DNA of 64,000 nt from Loktanella sp. D2R18 (GTDB lineage Bacteria > Pseudomonadota > Alphaproteobacteria > Rhodobacterales > Rhodobacteraceae): contig NZ_QOCG01000022.1 of the NCBI RefSeq assembly GCF_003318235.1, forward strand, positions 1-64,000, written 5' to 3'. Positions 352 to 9,529 of the stretch are shown here, piece after piece (position 1 is the stretch's first letter; every line of letters begins with the position of its first letter). The notes below the pieces were generated by a model, which was given only the letters and a program-made list of their open reading frames with translations, had not been told where the DNA came from and searched no databases. The translations under genes and the position numbers were made by a program.

Positions 352-651
352 TTACTCTGCGATTGACACAGACGCTATGCGAAGGATCCCGTTAGCCTGT
401 TTCAACTCGCGGTTCTCGCGTTCGAGAGCCTTCATCTTCTCGGTCATCTCGGTCGTGACACCACTCCGTTGGCGAGTATCGACCTCGACCTTCTTGACCC
501 ATTCGTTCAACGTTTGCGGCGCGCAGCCAATCTTCGCAGAAATCGACAGGATCGCTGACCATCGGCTGTCATGCTGCCCTTGATTGTCCAAAACCATTCG
601 CACGGCACGTTCGCGCACCTCTGGGGAATACTTGTTCGTTGTTTTGTTCAT
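352..651 (-). pseudogene. IS3-family transposase OrfA, 3'-truncated
   Basis: The 99-residue product has the OrfA layout: an N-terminal helix-turn-helix (YSPEVRERAVRMVLDNQG, then QTLNEWVKK) and a C-terminal leucine-zipper-like segment (ALERENRELKQANGILR). Intact homologues continue from about residue 90 into a frameshift window and OrfB. Here the reading frame departs from the family right after KQANGILR and stops, and no OrfB follows, so the element is a deletion remnant. Sequence upstream of the start (712-746) matches sequence next to the IS3 relic at 9.2-9.5 kb, so the two are probably copies of one element, in the same orientation, flanking the GTPase island. Confidence 0.85.
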
Positions 652-799: not shown

Positions 800-1156
800 T
801 TAGATAGCCAGTGTCTTTTCGACGTTTTTAACTTGGACACGCGCCATGCCTAAGTTTGCGCTCTTTTTGTCTAAGGCAACATAAAGGAAGACCGTTGGTG
901 TCTTTTCTAATGGGCGGATCAAGTGAAATTGCTTACCCAAAGTGATCAAGATATCGTCGATGTGATCGTCGAGGCCGAGCATTTCGATTGCCGAGAGCTT
1001 GGCTTTGACAACTTCTGTGTTTGCTGCACCTGCGGCCTCAAGGTCCAGGTCGCCACCGCCGTCTGAGGCCATCATCAGCCCTGTTTCACTGTCAACTAAA
1101 CATGCACCGATAAAACCACCTATTTCTGCAAGTTTCGAGATGTCTACTTTTGCCAT
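800..1156 (-). CDS. Possible internally initiated free roadblock/LC7 protein (module A)
   Basis: Within the fusion ORF an ATG at 1156 begins MAKVDISKLAEIGGFIGACL, exactly where the roadblock domain starts. It is preceded by an AAAAAGGA ribosome-binding sequence with a 7-nt spacer. The paralogous roadblock gene of module B starts at the equivalent residue and is about 92% identical. The internal start is inferred; no separate product is proven. Confidence 0.5.
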   Translation of the reverse strand: MAKVDISKLAEIGGFIGACLVDSETGLMMASDGGGDLDLEAAGAANTEVVKAKLSAIEMLGLDDHIDDILITLGKQFHLIRPLEKTPTVFLYVALDKKSANLGMARVQVKNVEKTLAI

Positions 1157-2041
1157 GTCAGATTCCTTTTTTGAAGTTGGATGTCTTGTCGTTTCTTTTG
1201 GTGTGTGAAGGGGGCCTTTCTTTAGTTGCGTTTGGGAAGAGTGAGACGTCGCTTGTGAGGCATGAGTTGGTGACAACGTTGGGGTGGCAATATCGGGGCG
1301 AGCCAAGCAGGCAGCTTTGGCATCCGTAACGATCACCGTGAGGGCAGTCTGCAATGCGGAAATATTGCTTGCTTTCAAAAGATCGTCGCGGTCAGCTGCG
1401 CCTTTTGCTTGCTCTGCCTTTGAAGCAGTGTCGATCGATACTGCAAGCCGTTGAGCAAATAGTGTTTTCGTTTCATGAGTAACGCGTTTCATGACCTTTT
1501 CTACATCAGGCAGATTACGCAACTTGTCGCATTGCGTCAAAACGAGCAGGCTGCGCTGGTGCAACGGTTTCGGAAATGACCGCCACATTGATACTTCTGT
1601 CTGGCGCCACGCTTGGCTTATATTTGAACACCAGATGACTGCATCCAGAAATGGCGCAAACATGTGCAGCGATTTTTTGGTTAAACGTACATCCGAAATC
1701 CCGGGCGTGTCGATGATATCAATATCACGCAATAACGGGATCGGGAGTGCGACGCGCAAAGCTAAATATGCACTGCCGCTGTAATCGTTGATATCAATTG
1801 GATCAAAAGTTAGTGGGGGGGCATCTGCCCCAATCGCAATCCCATAGGGGGTATCGGCATAAGTCAGCCAAATCGGCGGATAATTTGTAGCTGTGATGCG
1901 AGTGGGAAACACGTTCGTACCAAGCAGATAGTTAAGCAACGTTGACTTGCCTGCACTATATTCACCCATAACAGCCAATACGGGGCGTTGACTGTGCCAA
2001 CCGGCAAAATAGTTTTCGGGTTCATCGATACCTTTTGGCAT
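800..2041 (-). CDS. Small dynamin-like GTPase fused to a C-terminal roadblock/LC7 domain (module A)
   Basis: The 413-residue protein starts at the ATG one base after the stop of the large GTPase, which indicates translational coupling. Residues 1-200 are a P-loop GTPase: Walker A GEYSAGKS at 26-33, G3 DTPG at 111-114, and TQCD at 169-172 in the G4 position. A polar linker follows (about 230-295, rich in Ser/Thr/His/Lys). The last 118 residues form a roadblock/LC7 domain, the fold of MglB-type regulators of small GTPases. The roadblock part has its own ATG and Shine-Dalgarno sequence (see 1164-1170), so a free roadblock protein may be made as well as the fusion. The paralogue at 5088-6158 lacks the in-frame fusion. 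GTPase assignment is firm; cellular role is unknown. Confidence 0.85.
   Translation of the reverse strand: MPKGIDEPENYFAGWHSQRPVLAVMGEYSAGKSTLLNYLLGTNVFPTRITATNYPPIWLTYADTPYGIAIGADAPPLTFDPIDINDYSGSAYLALRVALPIPLLRDIDIIDTPGISDVRLTKKSLHMFAPFLDAVIWCSNISQAWRQTEVSMWRSFPKPLHQRSLLVLTQCDKLRNLPDVEKVMKRVTHETKTLFAQRLAVSIDTASKAEQAKGAADRDDLLKASNISALQTALTVIVTDAKAACLARPDIATPTLSPTHASQATSHSSQTQLKKGPLHTPKETTRHPTSKKESDMAKVDISKLAEIGGFIGACLVDSETGLMMASDGGGDLDLEAAGAANTEVVKAKLSAIEMLGLDDHIDDILITLGKQFHLIRPLEKTPTVFLYVALDKKSANLGMARVQVKNVEKTLAI
1164..1170 (-). promoter_or_regulatory. Internal ribosome-binding site before the roadblock domain
   Basis: The minus strand reads AAAAGGA here, 7 bases before the internal ATG at 1156. 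A Shine-Dalgarno site inside an ORF at a domain boundary supports dual expression, as fusion and as free roadblock subunit. Confidence 0.5.
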
Positions 2042-2042
2042 A

Positions 2043-4184
2043 TTAGGTCGCCTCTGCGGTTTCGTGCAGGTCGGCGTCAATACGGGTAGCCAAGGCGTTC
2101 AAACCGTCGGATATTTCGGACAAGGTTTCGAGCCTAACCTTTATTCCATTTTCCATCCCCAAGGCATCTAATGCATGTTCGTGCTGACCTTTGTCACGTA
2201 ACAACACCAGATTTTTTAACCCGCGAATATGGTCTTCGAAAAAGCCATCAACAATCATCGTGTTCTCAGCTGCAAAGTCATCGATACAATCACTTTGAAT
2301 CTCGGCGAGGACAAGCATTGCTTCCGCTTCAACTAGCTTGTTCAACTTGCGTAGAAGTGATGTCAGCTTTACCTTTTTCGGCATCCAATTTGACAGCCAG
2401 CTCGATGAAATATCCAACGGCAAGGTTTTCATTAAGCAAAGCGGTTTAGGAGGGCAGTTTGATTGTAGTGGTTCCACATGAAATATCTTAACCGGATTGT
2501 TCAACACCTCGTCGTAGGCGCCTTGAACCTCTTGTGCGGCACCAATCAAAATTTCGCCAATTTTGATTGGTAACGTTTCTGAGAATTTCGCATACGACGC
2601 CATTAACCTGCGACGTAGCACCTCAATATTGGGCTTCCAATCTGTCAGGGGGGCACCTGTTTCGGCCGTAAGCGCTTCTTCCTCGTGATCCAAAAAATTG
2701 CTGTACGTATCTGAAATAGATGACAGCAGAACCCGCGTAGCGGCTTTCAACTCGGTTTGGCACGATTGCTGTACCTTTTCGTGGACGGCCTCAACCCGTG
2801 CAATTGCACCCGTGATGCCGACCTCGTCTGCCCTCCGTAATTCAGTAACATCCGATTGGTCAAGAAAGGCTAACGATGATGATACGATTTCTCGCGCACG
2901 TTGCGTAATGTTGGCCAGCTTTGGAAAGCCATTGTCCATACGACTTTTTGCTGCGATCAGATTGCGTAGGTCGAATAACCCCGACAGATCTTGTGCTTTT
3001 GCCAAAGTATACGCAATCGACCCAATAGGATGGGGCTCTGTTGATTTGTCGTTAGCATACTGTTTACGTGCAGCGGCAAGCGCGTCGAGCTTGTCCATTG
3101 ACACAGGGTTGCCCGTTGCGTTCATTCCGAATGACGCGATTTCACCCCATACCGCGCTACCGAAAATGATTGGGACGTCAGTTGGTAACTCTTGATCCGC
3201 CAAAATACCGCGGATATATGCGTCAATCTCGGGTATTTGTTCGTTCGGGTTACTCAGCTCGTCAATCCTATTCACGAAAAAGATGATTTGCTGCTTTTTC
3301 AGTGATCGTACAACCCGTAAAAGCCCCACATCTACGGTGCTAAACGATTGCTGTGCAGAAAGGACAAGAACGCAAATATCAGTATTGCCGAGGCTATTGA
3401 GCGTCACCGTTTCACGCATCAAGAAGGGGTCATTCACACCCGGTGTGTCTTGGATGATCGTCGGAACCCTATAGCGGTCGCTGTCTATATAGAGATCCGC
3501 CGTTTTTGTGACGTCAGCATAGCGCCCTTCCGGTGCCGATGCATCCGTTTCGTCGCCCAAACAAACGTATTTCTGAAGCATGGTGGGAGAGAAGCCCATA
3601 AAAGTATGCTGACCGCCCATCAGTAGATTGAAATTACGTCCAAGTCGCTGTTCTGTACGCTGCTGCATTTCGCGAATTTGATTTCGCATTTGATTGGCCT
3701 CAGCAGCAAATCCTGCGCGGTTTGCCGCTTCTCCCAACGTCCCGCCAGCCTCAACCATGCTGAGCCATTCCTGCGTCGTGAAAAAATTGAAAACCGCGTT
3801 TGCGCCTGCTGGTTTTGTAGTATTGATATGCACTGATGTGACGACTGAAGTCCAAGGGTTGACATCAGACGGTAACATATTTGGCTTACCGATAAGTGCA
3901 TTCGTCAAAGCGGTTTTGCCTGCCTTAACTTGCCCAATTAGCGACACATGAATCGCAAAGCTTTCAAGTTCATCGATAAGGCTCACAACGCGGTCGTGCG
4001 CCAACAAAGCGACTGCTTCACGTAAGCGGCATAGCAAAGCGAGCAACTCATCACGGTGTACATTAAAGCGAGGTACTAGCCGTGGCTTATCAACCATAGG
4101 GTTGCCTGGAGAACCATACGGCGACTCGGCAAGGCCAAAGGTCAGGAGAGGATCACCGTTGTTGCTTATATCGGCTAATGACAT
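2043..4184 (-). CDS. Large dynamin-like GTPase (module A)
   Basis: The product has 713 residues. The G-domain motifs are clear: GQVKAGKT at 84-91 (G1), a Thr-containing switch in PWTSVVTS near 110-117 (G2), DTPG at 246-249 (G3), and NRID at 305-308 (G4). The long helical C-terminal half (about 430-713) resembles the stalk of bacterial dynamin-like proteins. It carries a short Trp-rich segment (LDISSSWLSNWM) that is conserved in the paralogue and could touch membrane; no transmembrane helix is visible. It shares the same architecture with the protein at 6151-8148 and obvious blocks of identity. It is followed after one base by the small GTPase-roadblock fusion. By analogy with paired bacterial dynamins (LeoA/B/C, DynA/DynB), the large and small GTPases may work together; this is inference. 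Confidence 0.85.
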   Translation of the reverse strand: MSLADISNNGDPLLTFGLAESPYGSPGNPMVDKPRLVPRFNVHRDELLALLCRLREAVALLAHDRVVSLIDELESFAIHVSLIGQVKAGKTALTNALIGKPNMLPSDVNPWTSVVTSVHINTTKPAGANAVFNFFTTQEWLSMVEAGGTLGEAANRAGFAAEANQMRNQIREMQQRTEQRLGRNFNLLMGGQHTFMGFSPTMLQKYVCLGDETDASAPEGRYADVTKTADLYIDSDRYRVPTIIQDTPGVNDPFLMRETVTLNSLGNTDICVLVLSAQQSFSTVDVGLLRVVRSLKKQQIIFFVNRIDELSNPNEQIPEIDAYIRGILADQELPTDVPIIFGSAVWGEIASFGMNATGNPVSMDKLDALAAARKQYANDKSTEPHPIGSIAYTLAKAQDLSGLFDLRNLIAAKSRMDNGFPKLANITQRAREIVSSSLAFLDQSDVTELRRADEVGITGAIARVEAVHEKVQQSCQTELKAATRVLLSSISDTYSNFLDHEEEALTAETGAPLTDWKPNIEVLRRRLMASYAKFSETLPIKIGEILIGAAQEVQGAYDEVLNNPVKIFHVEPLQSNCPPKPLCLMKTLPLDISSSWLSNWMPKKVKLTSLLRKLNKLVEAEAMLVLAEIQSDCIDDFAAENTMIVDGFFEDHIRGLKNLVLLRDKGQHEHALDALGMENGIKVRLETLSEISDGLNALATRIDADLHETAEAT

Positions 4185-4621
4185 GCTTATACTCTATATT
4201 TTTTGTCGAGAACAGATCAATTCATTAGGGCGTGCTCGGCACAAAACTATGCTTTCCAAGCTGGAGGCTTAGTTCAAAGATTCTCGTGTTCTACCTCAAG
4301 GTTGTGTTTGAAAGTTAACAAAGTCAATCGTTTCGCTGACAGTTTTATAATCTTTCTAAATAAATATATTTATCTGGGTGATGCCAGAAATGAGGGGTGT
4401 TAATCTCAAAGGTTTCTCGGCATTGTTGCGCGATTGAATAAAAGCAAGCCGTTTTTTTTGCCGCGCGGAATACGGCCAGTTTTTGGCAGTTTAAAATCTA
4501 TTTTGAGCAAGATACGATGGCAAAGCCTGCTTTTGTATAGCCGCTTCAGCGTGTGGCGGTGCAATCGCTGGGTATGTACTGCGCCGCCCGAAGCGCCGCA
4601 GTACGCAGTTATCTTCGTTCG
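4185..4621. other. Intermodule gap, no gene recognised
   Basis: About 440 bases separate the two GTPase modules. No convincing ORF is visible on either strand. The left part is AT-rich and could hold the promoter of module A; the right part holds a hairpin after module B (4576-4604). It looks less GC-rich than the flanking coding sequence. Confidence 0.6.
4576..4604 (-). terminator. Hairpin after module B
   Basis: An 8-bp perfect stem (GTACTGCG / CGCAGTAC) extends past one mismatch by three more pairs around a TTCG-type loop, 18 bases downstream of the roadblock stop codon at 4622. There is no clear T-run, so it may be a weak terminator or a 3' stabiliser. Confidence 0.45.
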
Positions 4622-4975
4622 TTAGAGCGAAATGGTCTTTTCGACATTTTTAACCTGCACACGTGCCATGCCTAGGTTCGCGTTTTTCTTATCTAGGGCT
4701 ACGTAGAGAAAGACGGTTGGCGTCTTTTCTAGTGGGCGGATCAAGTGAAACTGTTTGCCCAACGTGATCAGGATGTCGTCGATGCTGTCTTCGAGGCCCA
4801 GCATTTCGATCGCTGAGAGTTTTGCCTTAACAACCTCTGTATTGGCTGCGCCGGCTGCTTCGAGATCCAATGCCCCACCACCTTCGGATGCCATCATCAG
4901 GCCGGTTTCGCTGTCAACGAGGCACGCCCCGATAAAGCCACCGATGGATGCGAGCGCTGAGATATCTGTAGACAT
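4622..4975 (-). CDS. Roadblock/LC7 domain protein (module B)
   Basis: The 117-residue protein begins at the ATG at 4975, which has an AAGGAAG ribosome-binding sequence. It is a single roadblock/LC7 domain (SIGGFIGACLVDSETGLMM...) about 92% identical to the domain fused to the small GTPase of module A, although synonymous sites differ widely. Its ORF is open further upstream: from 5143 it would add a 56-residue polar linker overlapping the end of the GTPase gene. Roadblock proteins such as MglB act as GTPase-activating or scaffold partners of small GTPases, so this is a likely regulator of the neighbouring dynamin-like proteins. The N-terminal extent is the main uncertainty. Confidence 0.8.
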   Translation of the reverse strand: MSTDISALASIGGFIGACLVDSETGLMMASEGGGALDLEAAGAANTEVVKAKLSAIEMLGLEDSIDDILITLGKQFHLIRPLEKTPTVFLYVALDKKNANLGMARVQVKNVEKTISL

Positions 4976-4981
4976 GTTTTC

Positions 4982-4987
4982 TTCCTT
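4982..4987 (-). promoter_or_regulatory. Ribosome-binding site that decides the roadblock B start
   Basis: The minus strand reads AAGGAA, 6 bases before the ATG at 4975. No comparable site precedes the upstream in-frame ATG at 5143, so the short 117-residue form is preferred. Confidence 0.55.
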
Positions 4988-5087
4988 ACTAGTTATAATG
5001 GCGGGGGGCATGCCCCCACTTTTTTCATGAGATCCCAAGGTTGCCTTGGGGCTCAATTCGTCAGCTGAAACCGATTTCGTTTCAGAT

Positions 5088-6158
5088 TCATTTTTGCTTG
5101 CCCAGTTGGCACCAAGGTCCTTCAGAAAAGTCTTTAAGCTCATGGTGTATTTGCCTGTTAAGGGCTGTTGAATCGGTATCATCTTGCACGCGCAGCGACA
5201 ACAATTCATGAATGACGCTCGCGTGTGAATCAGTATCCACTTCATCGCCGATAAACGTGGTTTTTAATTGATCAAATGAGGCAATAATATTTTCATTTGA
5301 GGTCATGCTTGTGACATCAGCGATTGCTGCCGCGATGCAATCTTCGATTGATTGCGTATCCGTGCCTGCCACATGCACGATTTCGACCGACGTGGGGACA
5401 GGTTCGGCAACTGCAATCTCTCCTTCACGTTCGCGGCGTTCGGCGCGGTATGAAAGCGAGGCCGCAACCCTTGCTTCTATTGCGCTAACAAGCGCCGCAG
5501 CGCCGCTGTCTTGCCAACCTTCATCGGTACCAGTCTTTGCAGTTTTGGTTGAAATGGGAATAATCGCATAAAACGACTTTCCGGCGTCACGCTGGCACCG
5601 GGTAACGACCCGATTCACATCTTTTTTTGCACCGAGCAAATCAATACGTGTGATAGCAAGCAGGCTGTTATCCTGCAGTTCGTAGGACACGCTGTTCCAA
5701 GCTGCAGTTTCAGTTTGTCGCCAGGCTTGGCTCGCAGATGTGCACCAGACCACAAAATCAACATGAGGAGTGATGAGTTCAACAATATCGTCTGCGAGGT
5801 TGGGGTCGGAAATTCCTGGCGTGTCGATGATGTCTGTGTTGCGTAAAATTTCAGAGGGCAGTGTGCACCTAATGACTAAGTTATCGCTTAAATTTGCCAA
5901 ATCAGCATCAGGATCAGGGATGGACGAAAACGTTCCGTCGTAGTCTAGAACCTCAACCTTCCGCGTTTCACCATGGGTAATCCAAACCGTGGGCAGTCGT
6001 GTTGCCGTCACACGTGCGGGTAAAAGCTGCACACCAAGCAACAAATTCAGAAGCGATGACTTTCCGACGCTGTATTCGCCCATTAATGCAAAGCAAGGGG
6101 TTTTTCTTGACCAAGCTGTCAGGATTGATTTGGCTTTCTCTGACACCATATTAGTCAT
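5088..6158 (-). CDS. Small dynamin-like GTPase (module B)
   Basis: The product has 356 residues. G motifs are GEYSVGKS at 27-34, DTPG at 112-115 and TRID at 170-173. The sequence around each motif (for instance ASQAWRQTE at 142-150) matches the module A small GTPase, so the two are paralogues. The C-terminal third is acidic and helical, with no fused roadblock domain. The start overlaps the large GTPase stop by 8 bases, and a second in-frame ATG lies at 6149. The stop (CAA AAA TGA) lies 56 bases inside the open frame that leads into the roadblock gene, in the +1 frame. This geometry is either an ancestral fusion broken by a frameshift or a natural overlap. Confidence 0.82.
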   Translation of the reverse strand: MTNMVSEKAKSILTAWSRKTPCFALMGEYSVGKSSLLNLLLGVQLLPARVTATRLPTVWITHGETRKVEVLDYDGTFSSIPDPDADLANLSDNLVIRCTLPSEILRNTDIIDTPGISDPNLADDIVELITPHVDFVVWCTSASQAWRQTETAAWNSVSYELQDNSLLAITRIDLLGAKKDVNRVVTRCQRDAGKSFYAIIPISTKTAKTGTDEGWQDSGAAALVSAIEARVAASLSYRAERREREGEIAVAEPVPTSVEIVHVAGTDTQSIEDCIAAAIADVTSMTSNENIIASFDQLKTTFIGDEVDTDSHASVIHELLSLRVQDDTDSTALNRQIHHELKDFSEGPWCQLGKQK

Positions 6159-8148
6159 TCTGTTGTTCCCCTAGGGCCAAGCCTTGCGTATCGCGCGAAA
6201 TGGACTGCAAGTCTTCCTTCAAGGCGCTCAGAGCTGTGATCCGCTGTTTTACTTCGTTCTCAAGCCCAAAAGATTGGCGCGTTTGCGCAAATTCGGGGGC
6301 ACCCTCCGTTATAGTGATATTGCGAATTGTTGCGATGTGGGCGTCGATGAAATCCTGCAACTTGGCCCGTGACTGGACCGCAAATTCGTAAATGTAGACG
6401 CGTTTTAGCTCCGAGACAGTCGATAACATTTCTTCCGTGGCAAGTTTTTCAAACTGTGCAACATAGCTTGTTGCTTTGCGTTGTTTTGACGTTAGGCGCC
6501 CTAGCCAGCCAGCGCTCAGATCTATGCTCATTGTTTTCATTAGAAAAACGGGAGTCTTCGGCTGCTCGAACGCCGGCCCTACGACAGGGAAAAGACTCTC
6601 ACTGCTACCCACTATGTCAGCATAAAGCGCTGATATACTGTTTGCCGCATTTTGGATAACTTCGCCTAATTTCGCAGTAGCCCTATTTGAAAATTCATTA
6701 TAGCCATGAAATAACTCTTTGCGTAACCCTTCGGTTTGCGGCGCCCAGTTTTTAAGGCCTTTGCCCTTTGTGACGGCACTGCTGAGTTCACGGGATTCTT
6801 TGACTATGAATGAACGATATGCATCTGACATTGCAAATGATGCCATTTCGATTACGTCGTTTATCAACGCGTCCAAATCCGCATTCATGGTATTGTAAAT
6901 TTCTGAGGTGCGTAATGAAATAGCGTCCGCATCATTTCCGATGCCCGCCACGTTTCGTTCGCTTAACGCATTGTCTAAGACAAGGACGGACCGGTTCACC
7001 AAGTCCGTGCATTCGTCACGCAAAGCCTCAATTGCTGGCCAACTTACATCATTCGTAGATTTCTCGTCCAAAACCCGCATTAATTCGCTGATACCGGACA
7101 GATCAGCCTTGTCGCCATCATCACCATCAGGCGCCAAACCCAATTCGGCACCCCACTTCGCACTGCCGAAAACAATCGGAATGTCTTGCGACATGTTGCG
7201 ATCTTTAAGCGTGCGCTGAATGTATTTTTTTATCTCAACCGTTTGCTCTTTGGGGTCTTCTAGCTCATCAATTCGGTTTACAAACAAGACGACTTGTTCG
7301 TGGTGCAGCCCCATAATGATGTTGATCAATCCAATATCCACGGTGCTAAGCGCCTGATGCGCGCTCAATACAATGACGCAGATGTTTGAACTCGCGAGAT
7401 TATCGAGCGTGACCGCTTCGCGAACAAGAAACGGGTCATTTACTCCGGGTGTATCGGCCAAAATCACTGGCATGGGGAACGATGAATCTTCAAAGTATAA
7501 ATCTGCGGACTTTGTCAGATCGGCGAAACGACCACTCGGGTCCACGTCCGCATCGTCATCGTCACCAAGGCAGACGTACTTTTTGATCAATGCTGAATCG
7601 AATTCAGAAAAACTATGCTTGTTACCAAGAAGCAAGGTGAAGTTTACCCCCAATCGGTTTTGGGCGTGCGATTGCAGCGCGCGCACCTGTTCGCGCATTT
7701 CATCGGCTTCTCGTTCGAAATTGGTGCGTCCTGCGAACTCTCCAAGTCTGCCGCCAGCAGCGGTCATGTTCGCCCATTCATCTTTATCAAAAAATTGAAA
7801 TACGGCACCTTTTTTTGGGGGGGTGGACGGATTCATATGCAGGGATGTGATGACCGATGTCCAAGGGTTTACATCTGAAGGCAGCAACCCAGGGCGTCCG
7901 ATTAACGCGTTTGTCAATGCGGTCTTACCTGCTTTGACCTGACCAACGATTGAAATGCGGGCCTTAATTTCAGGAATGTTCTGTTGTATCTCTAGCGCAC
8001 GTCCCAATGCATCGGGTACAACGAGGCGCTGCATATCCTGTGCGATTGCCTCCAAGCGTTCCACTGCAATCCTTGCAGCCTGCGCGTGCTTCATGGAAGC
8101 GGGAAATAGCTTTTTTTGCTGATCATGATCAGCCGTAGATAAAGACAT
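6151..8148 (-). CDS. Large dynamin-like GTPase (module B)
   Basis: The protein has 665 residues from the ATG at 8148; the frame is open to a TTG at 8160. It has GQVKAGKT at 69-76, SDVNPWTSVITS around the G2 threonine, DTPGVNDPF (G3) and NRIDEL (G4), all nearly identical to the module A large GTPase. The C-terminal half is helical, and it shares the segment MKTMSIDLSAGWLG with the paralogue. The motif blocks are strongly conserved between modules while the stalk region has diverged. The gene heads module B and overlaps the small GTPase by 8 bases. Dynamin-family assignment rests on motifs, size and gene pairing; membrane activity is not demonstrated. Confidence 0.85.
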   Translation of the reverse strand: MSLSTADHDQQKKLFPASMKHAQAARIAVERLEAIAQDMQRLVVPDALGRALEIQQNIPEIKARISIVGQVKAGKTALTNALIGRPGLLPSDVNPWTSVITSLHMNPSTPPKKGAVFQFFDKDEWANMTAAGGRLGEFAGRTNFEREADEMREQVRALQSHAQNRLGVNFTLLLGNKHSFSEFDSALIKKYVCLGDDDDADVDPSGRFADLTKSADLYFEDSSFPMPVILADTPGVNDPFLVREAVTLDNLASSNICVIVLSAHQALSTVDIGLINIIMGLHHEQVVLFVNRIDELEDPKEQTVEIKKYIQRTLKDRNMSQDIPIVFGSAKWGAELGLAPDGDDGDKADLSGISELMRVLDEKSTNDVSWPAIEALRDECTDLVNRSVLVLDNALSERNVAGIGNDADAISLRTSEIYNTMNADLDALINDVIEMASFAMSDAYRSFIVKESRELSSAVTKGKGLKNWAPQTEGLRKELFHGYNEFSNRATAKLGEVIQNAANSISALYADIVGSSESLFPVVGPAFEQPKTPVFLMKTMSIDLSAGWLGRLTSKQRKATSYVAQFEKLATEEMLSTVSELKRVYIYEFAVQSRAKLQDFIDAHIATIRNITITEGAPEFAQTRQSFGLENEVKQRITALSALKEDLQSISRDTQGLALGEQQND

Positions 8149-8298: not shown

Positions 8299-9120
8299 TT
8301 ACGAAACGAATCGCAATGTCCCAATTATTGTTCCATCTGCGCGTCGAACTTCGATTGAAGATATTTCTTCGCTTGAACTTAGCTCGCAAGCAATCTCTTG
8401 TAGGTGTAACATTCCGGAAATGATTTCACTCGATGCGGTGATCGGCGCAGATAAGAAATCGCCATTTACATCTATATCCCACGCATGCGTTGATTTGTCG
8501 TTATTTGGGGCAAGCAAACTACTAATCGGGTAGGTGTACCGTACCGCTAGTTCTGAATTGTCCCCGAGTGAATAAGCGGCCTCTTTGCCGTCCTCGGCTG
8601 CATTTTGGATGGCCTTGGCGATTTCTATCGGTGATGTGGCGCCGTTTAAGATATTAAAGTAGCCGCGATGGGCTTGCAGCACGATTTCATTCTGACCAGC
8701 GCGAAGAACAAACACACGTGTTGCTTCGCTGCGTGCAATACGTGCGCAAAGTGCCAAGAGTATTTGGCGTTGGGCTGTACCTGCGCGAATATTTTCGGGT
8801 TTCAGCTCTGCCGCATGAGAATCCAGAGCCCGTAACTTTGGAAGTAGAAGACCGATGTTTAGCGATTGAGTGCCTTCGCAAATCAAGGAACCTTGAAGCG
8901 ACGCAACGGAGGTACGGTCGTTAGAGCGGACGATCAACGTGCATGCGTCAGGAATGTGCAGCGCGCCTTGCAACAGTGCGCGGCTTTGCGCTGCATAAGC
9001 GCCAAGTGTTGCAACATCGGCATGCGCCGCGACATTTGTAGGGAGCACATCCCTACCTGCAAAACTGTAAAGAGCAAGAAATCCGCGGCTGTTAAAAACG
9101 GGCCAATCGAAAGTTACCAT
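8299..9120 (-). CDS. Unknown protein at the head of the GTPase/roadblock island
   Basis: This 273-residue soluble protein is not recognised as a named family. It is in the same orientation as the two GTPase modules and separated from module B by 150 bases. The N-terminal 80 residues contain a pattern (hydrophobic strand, Gly-containing turn, helix ATLGAYAAQSRALLQGAL, then a strand TLIVRS) that resembles a divergent roadblock/longin-type fold; this is only an impression. The C-terminal end (SSIEVRRADGTIIGTLRFVS) looks like a beta-hairpin. It has no signal peptide or membrane segment. Its place between an IS relic and the modules marks it as a likely component of the same system. Confidence 0.6.
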   Translation of the reverse strand: MVTFDWPVFNSRGFLALYSFAGRDVLPTNVAAHADVATLGAYAAQSRALLQGALHIPDACTLIVRSNDRTSVASLQGSLICEGTQSLNIGLLLPKLRALDSHAAELKPENIRAGTAQRQILLALCARIARSEATRVFVLRAGQNEIVLQAHRGYFNILNGATSPIEIAKAIQNAAEDGKEAAYSLGDNSELAVRYTYPISSLLAPNNDKSTHAWDIDVNGDFLSAPITASSEIISGMLHLQEIACELSSSEEISSIEVRRADGTIIGTLRFVS

Positions 9121-9220: not shown

Positions 9221-9436
9221 TTAAGTATGTAGCACGTCACCAGTTATGCAAGCGGCATGTTGTTTGAGCAGCCCCACTTGAGTGGTCCAATTTGAAAGTG
9301 AGTGCATGATCGGCCTTTGGTCCATCGGGATGATGGCTTCGGGCGCTGGTGGGCGGTAGCCCAATGCACTGTGTGGCCGCTTGGTGCTGTAGTGTTTCCT
9401 CCAGCTTTCGATGAGCCAAGAACACTCTCTTATCAA
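9221..9436 (-). pseudogene. IS3-family transposase OrfB, C-terminal fragment
   Basis: Residues such as LIESWRKHYSTKRPHSALGYR followed by PPAPEAIIP and MDQRPIMH are the standard C-terminus of OrfB (integrase-core) of IS3-family transposases in Rhodobacteraceae. The catalytic DDE region is missing. Normal stop sequence is lost, so the frame runs through the terminal repeat (TTGGACCACTCAAGTGG on the minus strand) into flanking DNA. It is a relic. Confidence 0.85.
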
Positions 9437-9476
9437 ATACGGCTATTTGGACCCATAAGCGCTGACGTCAGACAGG
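9242..9476 (-). mobile_element. IS3-family element relic, internal deletion
   Basis: The relic consists of a left terminal region (9444-9475, repeat of 713-744) joined directly to the 3' end of OrfB and a right terminal sequence near 9260-9295. OrfA and most of OrfB are gone. With the OrfA relic at 352-651 it brackets the GTPase island in direct orientation. Confidence 0.7.
9444..9475 (-). repeat. IS3 end-like repeat, right copy
   Basis: Direct repeat of 713-744 (29 of 32 identical). See that entry. Confidence 0.7.
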
Positions 9477-9529
9477 CTCCCTGCATTTGCAATGCGGCCA
9501 TTGAAGCCTTGAGCCGCAAAAGACCGCTG

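Follow-up and report, generated by a model that had tools for sequence, protein, structure and literature searches.

We analysed a 64,000-nucleotide stretch of the Loktanella sp. D2R18 genome (contig NZ_QOCG01000022.1; hereafter the window), the first position of which is base 1 of the contig, and characterized a gene set encoding two pairs of a large (A) and a small (B) dynamin-like GTPase, each pair accompanied by a roadblock-like domain (R). Judged by gene content in other genomes, the dynamin-like pair with a roadblock-like partner is a conserved combination, and the set in the window is, on the same comparison, a reduced form of a larger operon type. The recurrence of this grouping across many Rhodobacteraceae genomes, often beside a kinase and a phosphatase or a light-sensor-like protein, points to a likely signal-controlled membrane-remodelling machine. 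We propose with moderate confidence that roadblock-like domains couple signalling proteins to the dynamin-like pairs, which would remodel a membrane when signalled. The components of the set in the window are as follows.

8299-9120, minus strand: T, a protein of 273 amino acids and first gene of the set, with no Pfam match at E ≤ 1
6151-8148, minus strand: A1, large dynamin-like GTPase of 665 amino acids (Dynamin_N, E 1.3e-10)
5088-6158, minus strand: B1, small dynamin-like GTPase of 356 amino acids (Dynamin_N, E 1.6e-12), overlapping the end of A1
4622-4975, minus strand: R1, free roadblock-like protein of 117 amino acids, its ATG and stop read from the sequence
2043-4184, minus strand: A2, large dynamin-like GTPase of 713 amino acids (Dynamin_N, E 1.3e-10), a paralogue distinct from A1
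800-2041, minus strand: B2-R2, small dynamin-like GTPase with an in-frame roadblock-like domain, 413 amino acids (Dynamin_N, E 2.6e-13)
800-1156, minus strand: R2 part, inside B2-R2, with a possible ATG start of its own (118 amino acids)
1164-1168, minus strand: putative Shine-Dalgarno-like motif AAGGA, inside the B2-R2 frame and seven bases before the R2 ATG

Read along the minus strand from 9120 to 800, the order is T, A1, B1, R1, an interval of 437 bases, A2, and B2-R2. A preliminary description of this DNA had reported two modules, each of a large GTPase, a small GTPase, and a roadblock protein; the order and all the parts were recovered, but B2 and R2 form one uninterrupted frame, in which R2 keeps an in-frame ATG behind the AAGGA motif. 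All four GTPases exceeded the curated cut-off of the Pfam family Dynamin_N (E 2.6e-13 to 1.3e-10), and the earlier statement that all of them retain the G1 and G3 motifs was confirmed by eye: GQVKAGKT and DTPGVND were read in A1 and A2, and GEYSVGKS or GEYSAGKS and DTPGISD in B1 and B2. A G4-like motif was likewise read by eye in each of the four (NRID, NRID, TRID, and TQCD). In the alignment of the A family, a Trp/Arg-rich patch at the C-terminus is strong in most members and weaker in A1 and A2; A is predicted to contact the membrane, perhaps through this patch.

The larger operon type is represented in the same genome by a third A gene, which lies on contig C33 within a fuller operon of eight genes. 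These encode a kinase (K, 719 amino acids), an FHA protein (F, 270), a PP2C phosphatase (P, 393), a degenerate GTPase (G, 443), A (694), B (288), a divergent roadblock-like protein (S, 120), and a further protein, U (259). Pfam searches confirmed Pkinase, FHA, PP2C_2, and Dynamin_N for K, F, P, and B, respectively; the match of G to Dynamin_N fell short of the cut-off (E 8.6e-4), and U had no Pfam match at E ≤ 1. The majority sequence of the G family keeps the P-loop and a TKAD-like G4 motif, and no DTPG-like G3 motif was seen in it.

Gene content was scored as profile matches on stop-to-stop frames in 75 A loci, comprising 73 of 80 fetched neighbourhoods and two loci of this genome, after three weak-match genomes (G113, G133, and G142) had been dropped; the neighbourhoods that supplied the sequences for the family profiles were also those in which matches were counted. 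The B2 profile holds roadblock-like tails, and its matches to S, which are not independent, were not used as evidence. A small GTPase was found in 74 of the 75 loci and S or R in 66, while K was present in 47, F, P, and G in 49 each, and U in 53. The A-B-R arrangement was found in 11 loci, and S and R occurred together only in L083, which holds two operons. From the opposite direction, the best 80 named of 536 R loci were considered and 68 of them were taken as Rhodobacterales-like, including L189, which is titled Oceanobacillus; in 48 of the 68, A was located within 9 kb of R, as A-B-R or R-A-B-A-B. Counted from either gene, the roadblock protein is thus mostly kept beside the GTPases in other genomes; the opposite finding would have counted against the preliminary description. 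The composition given in the preliminary description, pairs with a roadblock protein, was correct but incomplete, as all eight genes were present in 40 of the 75 A loci, adding the kinase, the FHA protein, PP2C, the degenerate GTPase, and an uncharacterized protein of ~265 amino acids. Duplication, which had been regarded as a defining feature, did not hold as such: tandems occur, yet many loci contain a single large GTPase.

In a sample of 246 genomes of the family Rhodobacteraceae, with at most four candidates scored per genome in the A search, A was found in 66 genomes and a close R in 16, and 15 of 22 R matches had an A match at ≤10 kb. Close relatives of A were rare beyond the family: at E ≤ 1e-20, they were detected in 2 of 318 genomes of a class sample, both from this genus, and in 9 of 398 genomes of a phylum sample, eight of these belonging to the family and the ninth to a different family of the same class. 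Plasmid matches to A amounted to 20 records, 18 of them from Leisingera, Ruegeria, and Rhodobacter and a weak pair from Photobacterium and Moraxella. The distribution of R within the genus is patchy, with matches in 7 of 36 genomes. In IMG/VR, R relatives that are 50-56% identical are encoded on four viral contigs (L230-L233), with no dynamin-family match in the stretch; a search of annotated phages gave no match to the R relative of L231. R relatives with 54-59% identity and no dynamin nearby were also observed in Lysobacter, Minicystis, Acinetobacter, and Pseudoxanthomonas (L222, L223, and L226-L229).

A phylogenetic tree of 71 A proteins from hand-chosen loci placed A1 and A2 each with a different Yoonia/Loktanella paralogue (support 100), and a single branch (support 100) has all 11 full-operon A genes on the same side. 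The R-linked single A genes require at least seven label changes on this tree, so that R seems to have moved among A lineages. A1 and A2 are 37% identical (244/656) and the N-terminal parts of B1 and B2 38.5% identical (87/226). R1 and R2 share 90% of their residues (105/117) compared with 77% of their DNA, the same codon being used at 42 of 100 identical residues, which indicates that their likeness stems from constraint and not from recent copying. A recent tandem duplication of the modules was ruled out by the A tree together with the codon comparison.

R and S are predicted to be roadblock domains, a label that R carries because of its predicted topology and the database names of its homologues. 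AlphaFold2 models of R2 and S share the order helix, two strands, helix, three strands, helix, which is the canonical roadblock order; the fold comparison covers the order of elements only. The model of B2-R2 had a mean predicted local distance difference test score (pLDDT) of 88, with block values of ≥86 in the R part, and the S model reached a mean of 84 in the best of five models, which ranged from 67 to 84. R1 has 1068 homologues at E ≤ 1e-3, and several among the 120 listed are named roadblock/LC7, while one S homologue bears the database name Roadblock/LAMTOR2. R or S is also predicted to dimerise.

Fusions of the kind seen in B2-R2 proved to be common. A search for R-domain fusions, which scored the 7997 candidates sharing most words, provided 47 B-R proteins with >60 residues before R; this class was set by position in the list, and four of its members (P0162, P0163, P0166, and P0168) are without a precomputed Dynamin_N match. 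R domains also end Ser/Thr kinases, 33 of which were analysed and have R parts 57-78% identical to the R of the window in local alignments. A methionine is present at the R boundary in 41 of the 47 B-R fusions and in 32 of the 33 kinase-R fusions, compared with 6.3 and 6.4, respectively, expected from the linker methionine rate. Just before this methionine, lysine followed by glutamate, glycine, or aspartate, the codons of which can spell AAGGA or AAGGG, was found in 26 B-R fusions (2.1 expected) and 28 kinase-R fusions (0.8 expected); since the fusion proteins are related, the counts of both features are not independent. Response-regulator fusions had the boundary methionine in 10 of 11 cases and the lysine motif in 2 of 11, and among 11 other fusions the numbers were 6 and 2.

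Eight frames in which R follows a GTPase or kinase could be judged from their DNA. In three of them (L006, L170, and L167), the boundary ATG is accompanied by at least five bases of the Shine-Dalgarno core; L077 and L081 have fewer than five, although in L081 the sequence AAAGGA precedes another in-frame ATG, located six codons further upstream. The divergent L136, L148, and L140 (the last identical to L189) have no ATG at the R boundary. For comparison, a Shine-Dalgarno match precedes 178 of 3777 internal ATGs of the A, B, G, K, and P genes (4.7%) and 37 of 76 ATG starts of free R genes. These patterns suggest that R may be translated separately from fused genes; alternatively to selection, the boundary start may simply be left over from a once free gene. 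As 6 of the 47 B-R proteins have no methionine at the R boundary, a fused-only form exists. In L124 (4750-6630), a B-type GTPase, a segment with the phosphatase-like motif HCHAGHGRTG, identified by eye, and an S-type domain are joined in a single frame.

P0184, one of the kinase-R fusions, shares 54% identity in its kinase part with K of the full operon of this genome. When 385 class genomes were searched with P0184 at E ≤ 1e-60, only kinase-domain matches were obtained, in two genomes of this genus, so that L167 stands alone as a strong kinase-R fusion for which DNA is available. This genome encodes two more Ser/Thr kinases that share 51% identity with P0184 (C4:70451-71326 and C32:82707-83588; L237 and L238), and the short stretches read around them showed no dynamin gene. 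Several of the proteins P0215-P0229 combine a response regulator with DUF4388 and an R domain, one of them from a Sandaracinaceae metagenome-assembled genome. In seven genomes (L152, L154, L156, L157, L158, L160, and L176), R is immediately followed by a LOV-like gene, and the LOV search match G015 shares its contig position with L154. The best PDB match of the LOV-like protein is a LOV protein (E 2.4e-27), Pfam PAS_9 was detected in all four LOV-like proteins examined, and the protein contains NCRFLQ, which we take to be the photoactive-cysteine motif; this form of the system may be controlled by light. T has phmmer relatives ahead of A in 13 other loci (weakest E 4.4e-8), of which L151 and L153 represent one species. 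Profiles of T or U compared with those of R or S gave a best E of 0.036.

To our knowledge, little is known about how bacterial dynamins get switched on. In the mechanism that we propose, the output would be the A and B GTPases, likely acting on a membrane, and R, or the divergent S, would dimerise, dock regulators on the GTPases, and set their nucleotide state. The input of the full operon would likely be the Ser/Thr kinase, the PP2C phosphatase, and the FHA protein, whereas that of the window type could be T, a LOV-like sensor in some genomes, or R-carrying kinases encoded elsewhere. The sequences themselves establish gene content, order, co-occurrence, fusions, and motifs; dimerisation, control of the GTPases, the part played by light or phosphorylation, membrane remodelling, and separate translation of R from fused genes are inferred. 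A bolder version, which we consider only tentatively, treats the roadblock domain as a bus: a portable, highly conserved dimerising domain would plug Ser/Thr kinase, response-regulator, or LOV inputs into dynamins, which would thereby be gated by kinases or by light, and an internal ribosome-binding site in the fused genes would yield free subunits that pair with fused ones, linking kinase to GTPase. Through the natural GTPase-roadblock and kinase-roadblock fusions, the connection between roadblock domain and dynamin is open to direct study with purified proteins. If the readings hold, the LOV form would be a light-gated dynamin, and a fused gene with a conserved internal start would provide both a fused and a free subunit from one gene.

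Several results weigh against the proposed coupling. R1 and the R2 part of B2-R2 matched no Pfam family at E ≤ 1, Robl_LC7 included, and S of the full operon of this genome also had no Pfam match at E ≤ 1; the roadblock/LC7 label of the preliminary description therefore stands on topology and homologue names but not on a Pfam match. No relative of R was found among PDB sequences at E ≤ 10, and the S and R profiles aligned collinearly but weakly (E 0.017, probability 2.7%). In the B2-R2 model, the linker (residues 265-296) is disordered, with pLDDT <50, and the model gives no estimate of how closely the GTPase and R parts contact each other. Both S and R are absent from nine of the 75 A loci, three of which (L075, L096, and L114) finish near a contig end. 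A is absent from 20 of the 68 Rhodobacterales-like R loci, some of them on short contigs, and R also occurs in other phyla and in viral contigs, so that the partner of R need not be a dynamin. Neither a kinase nor a LOV gene belongs to the set in the window, and a LOV search of this genome gave nothing at E ≤ 1e-15.

The surroundings of the set include putative remnants of mobile elements, and the following features flank it in the window.

702-747: downstream copy of a 46-nucleotide repeat, 83% identical to 9433-9478 and in the same orientation
9433-9478: upstream copy of the 46-nucleotide repeat
352-651, minus strand: transposase open reading frame adjoining the downstream repeat (Pfam HTH_Tnp_1, E 1.2e-9)

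The two repeat copies bracket the module, and the repeat core recurs twice more in the genome, close to where contigs C4 and C14 begin; the repeat is possibly the end of an insertion element. On the side opposite the transposase frame, a short translated transposase-like piece was found, presumably the end of an IS3-type transposase. Among the loci examined, the kinase-dynamin operon adjoins rod-shape genes at seven (L079, L080, L086, L087, L089, L090, and L093), mreB being 103-333 bases away in six and mreC lying beside L089; the Pfam check of these genes covered three mreB genes, one mreC, and one transpeptidase. This adjacency may be inherited synteny or a functional hint. Defence genes were sought with PADLOC among 118 flanking proteins of 27 R-type loci, a set that leaves the flanks of the window itself and of the full operons outside. 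Four families were matched (mad3 by seven proteins, mad8 by six, AriA by two, and C3a186 by one), and no clear defence context emerged in this set.

These observations bear on a role in anti-phage defence, an option also raised in the preliminary description, or in plasmid defence; in this view, a LeoABC-like dynamin would act on the membrane of the infected cell with the roadblock protein and the kinase as sensors. The patchy spread of both R in the genus and A in the family, the copies that plasmids or large replicons carry in Leisingera, Ruegeria, and Rhodobacter, the insertion-element pieces adjoining the window copy, and the partial LeoA/LeoBC matches are in agreement with such a role. 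However, none of the four PADLOC families was convincing, the seven mad3 matches equal in number the PAS/LOV proteins of the flank set (the matching members were not identified), and seven loci adjoin rod-shape genes, and we regard defence as unlikely. The same rod-shape genes, with mreB close to the operon in six loci and mreC beside the seventh, would suit a regulator of polarity or cell shape similar to MglA/MglB, in which the dynamin-like proteins would be polar switches rather than remodellers, and roadblock proteins are known GTPase-activating proteins of polarity GTPases (PMC4316618). Yet the mreB link is seen in seven of the loci examined and may be inherited, and the GTPases are dynamin-like, not Ras-like; this explanation appears improbable.

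It is also conceivable, if quite unlikely in our estimate, that the roadblock-like domain has another, general purpose and merely shares operons with GTPases that work without it. The Rhodobacterales-like R loci without A, the response-regulator fusions and representatives in other phyla, and the repeated label changes of R-linked single A genes on the A tree would fit this view. A shared alternative partner was not apparent: the 117 neighbours at R loci without A fall into 102 Pfam families, the commonest having four members among the 25 listed. Against a general purpose, R or S stands beside the A-B pair in 66 of the 75 loci, and the in-frame B fusions, six of them without the boundary methionine, argue for a real fused product.

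The preliminary description had considered the combination of dynamin pairs with a roadblock protein to be undescribed, and we found no report of a bacterial dynamin with a roadblock protein, kinase, PP2C, or FHA protein among the top-ranked papers of open PubMed Central, a search that excluded subscription papers and preprints. Most bacterial dynamin-like genes are side-by-side pairs of different GTPases in an operon (PMC6104087). The system described here resembles such paired dynamins (Cj-DLP1/2, LeoABC, and DynA/DynB) in having two different adjacent dynamin-like GTPases but differs from them in its roadblock-like partner and its kinase, PP2C, and FHA or LOV neighbours. The window GTPases match the LeoA/LeoBC profiles partially rather than over their full length (best E 8.6e-9, 33 bits), and their scores against the NCBIfam model of DynA, 18-31 bits, are far below its cut-off of 1600. 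Similar to MglA/MglB, where the roadblock protein acts on a polarity GTPase (PMC4316618), a GTPase gene lies beside a roadblock-like gene whose product is predicted to act on the GTPase; in contrast to that system, the GTPases are not of the Ras type and R has no Robl_LC7 match. Many bacterial roadblock proteins lack a known GTPase partner, and 328 MglB homologues were counted that are uncoupled from MglA (PMC4316618). The present family supplies dynamin partners for one group of roadblock proteins, together with a kinase-phosphatase-FHA circuit in the same operon. In conservons, a sensor kinase, a roadblock protein, a small unknown protein, and a GTPase share one operon, the roadblock protein being regarded as the connection between sensor and GTPase (PMC13343842). 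The conservon order (histidine kinase, MglB-type protein, CvnC-type protein, and Ras-like GTPase) is not matched here, and the phylum is a different one: whereas conservons are actinobacterial and combine a histidine kinase with a Ras-like GTPase, the operons described here combine a Ser/Thr kinase, PP2C, and an FHA protein with dynamin-like GTPases.

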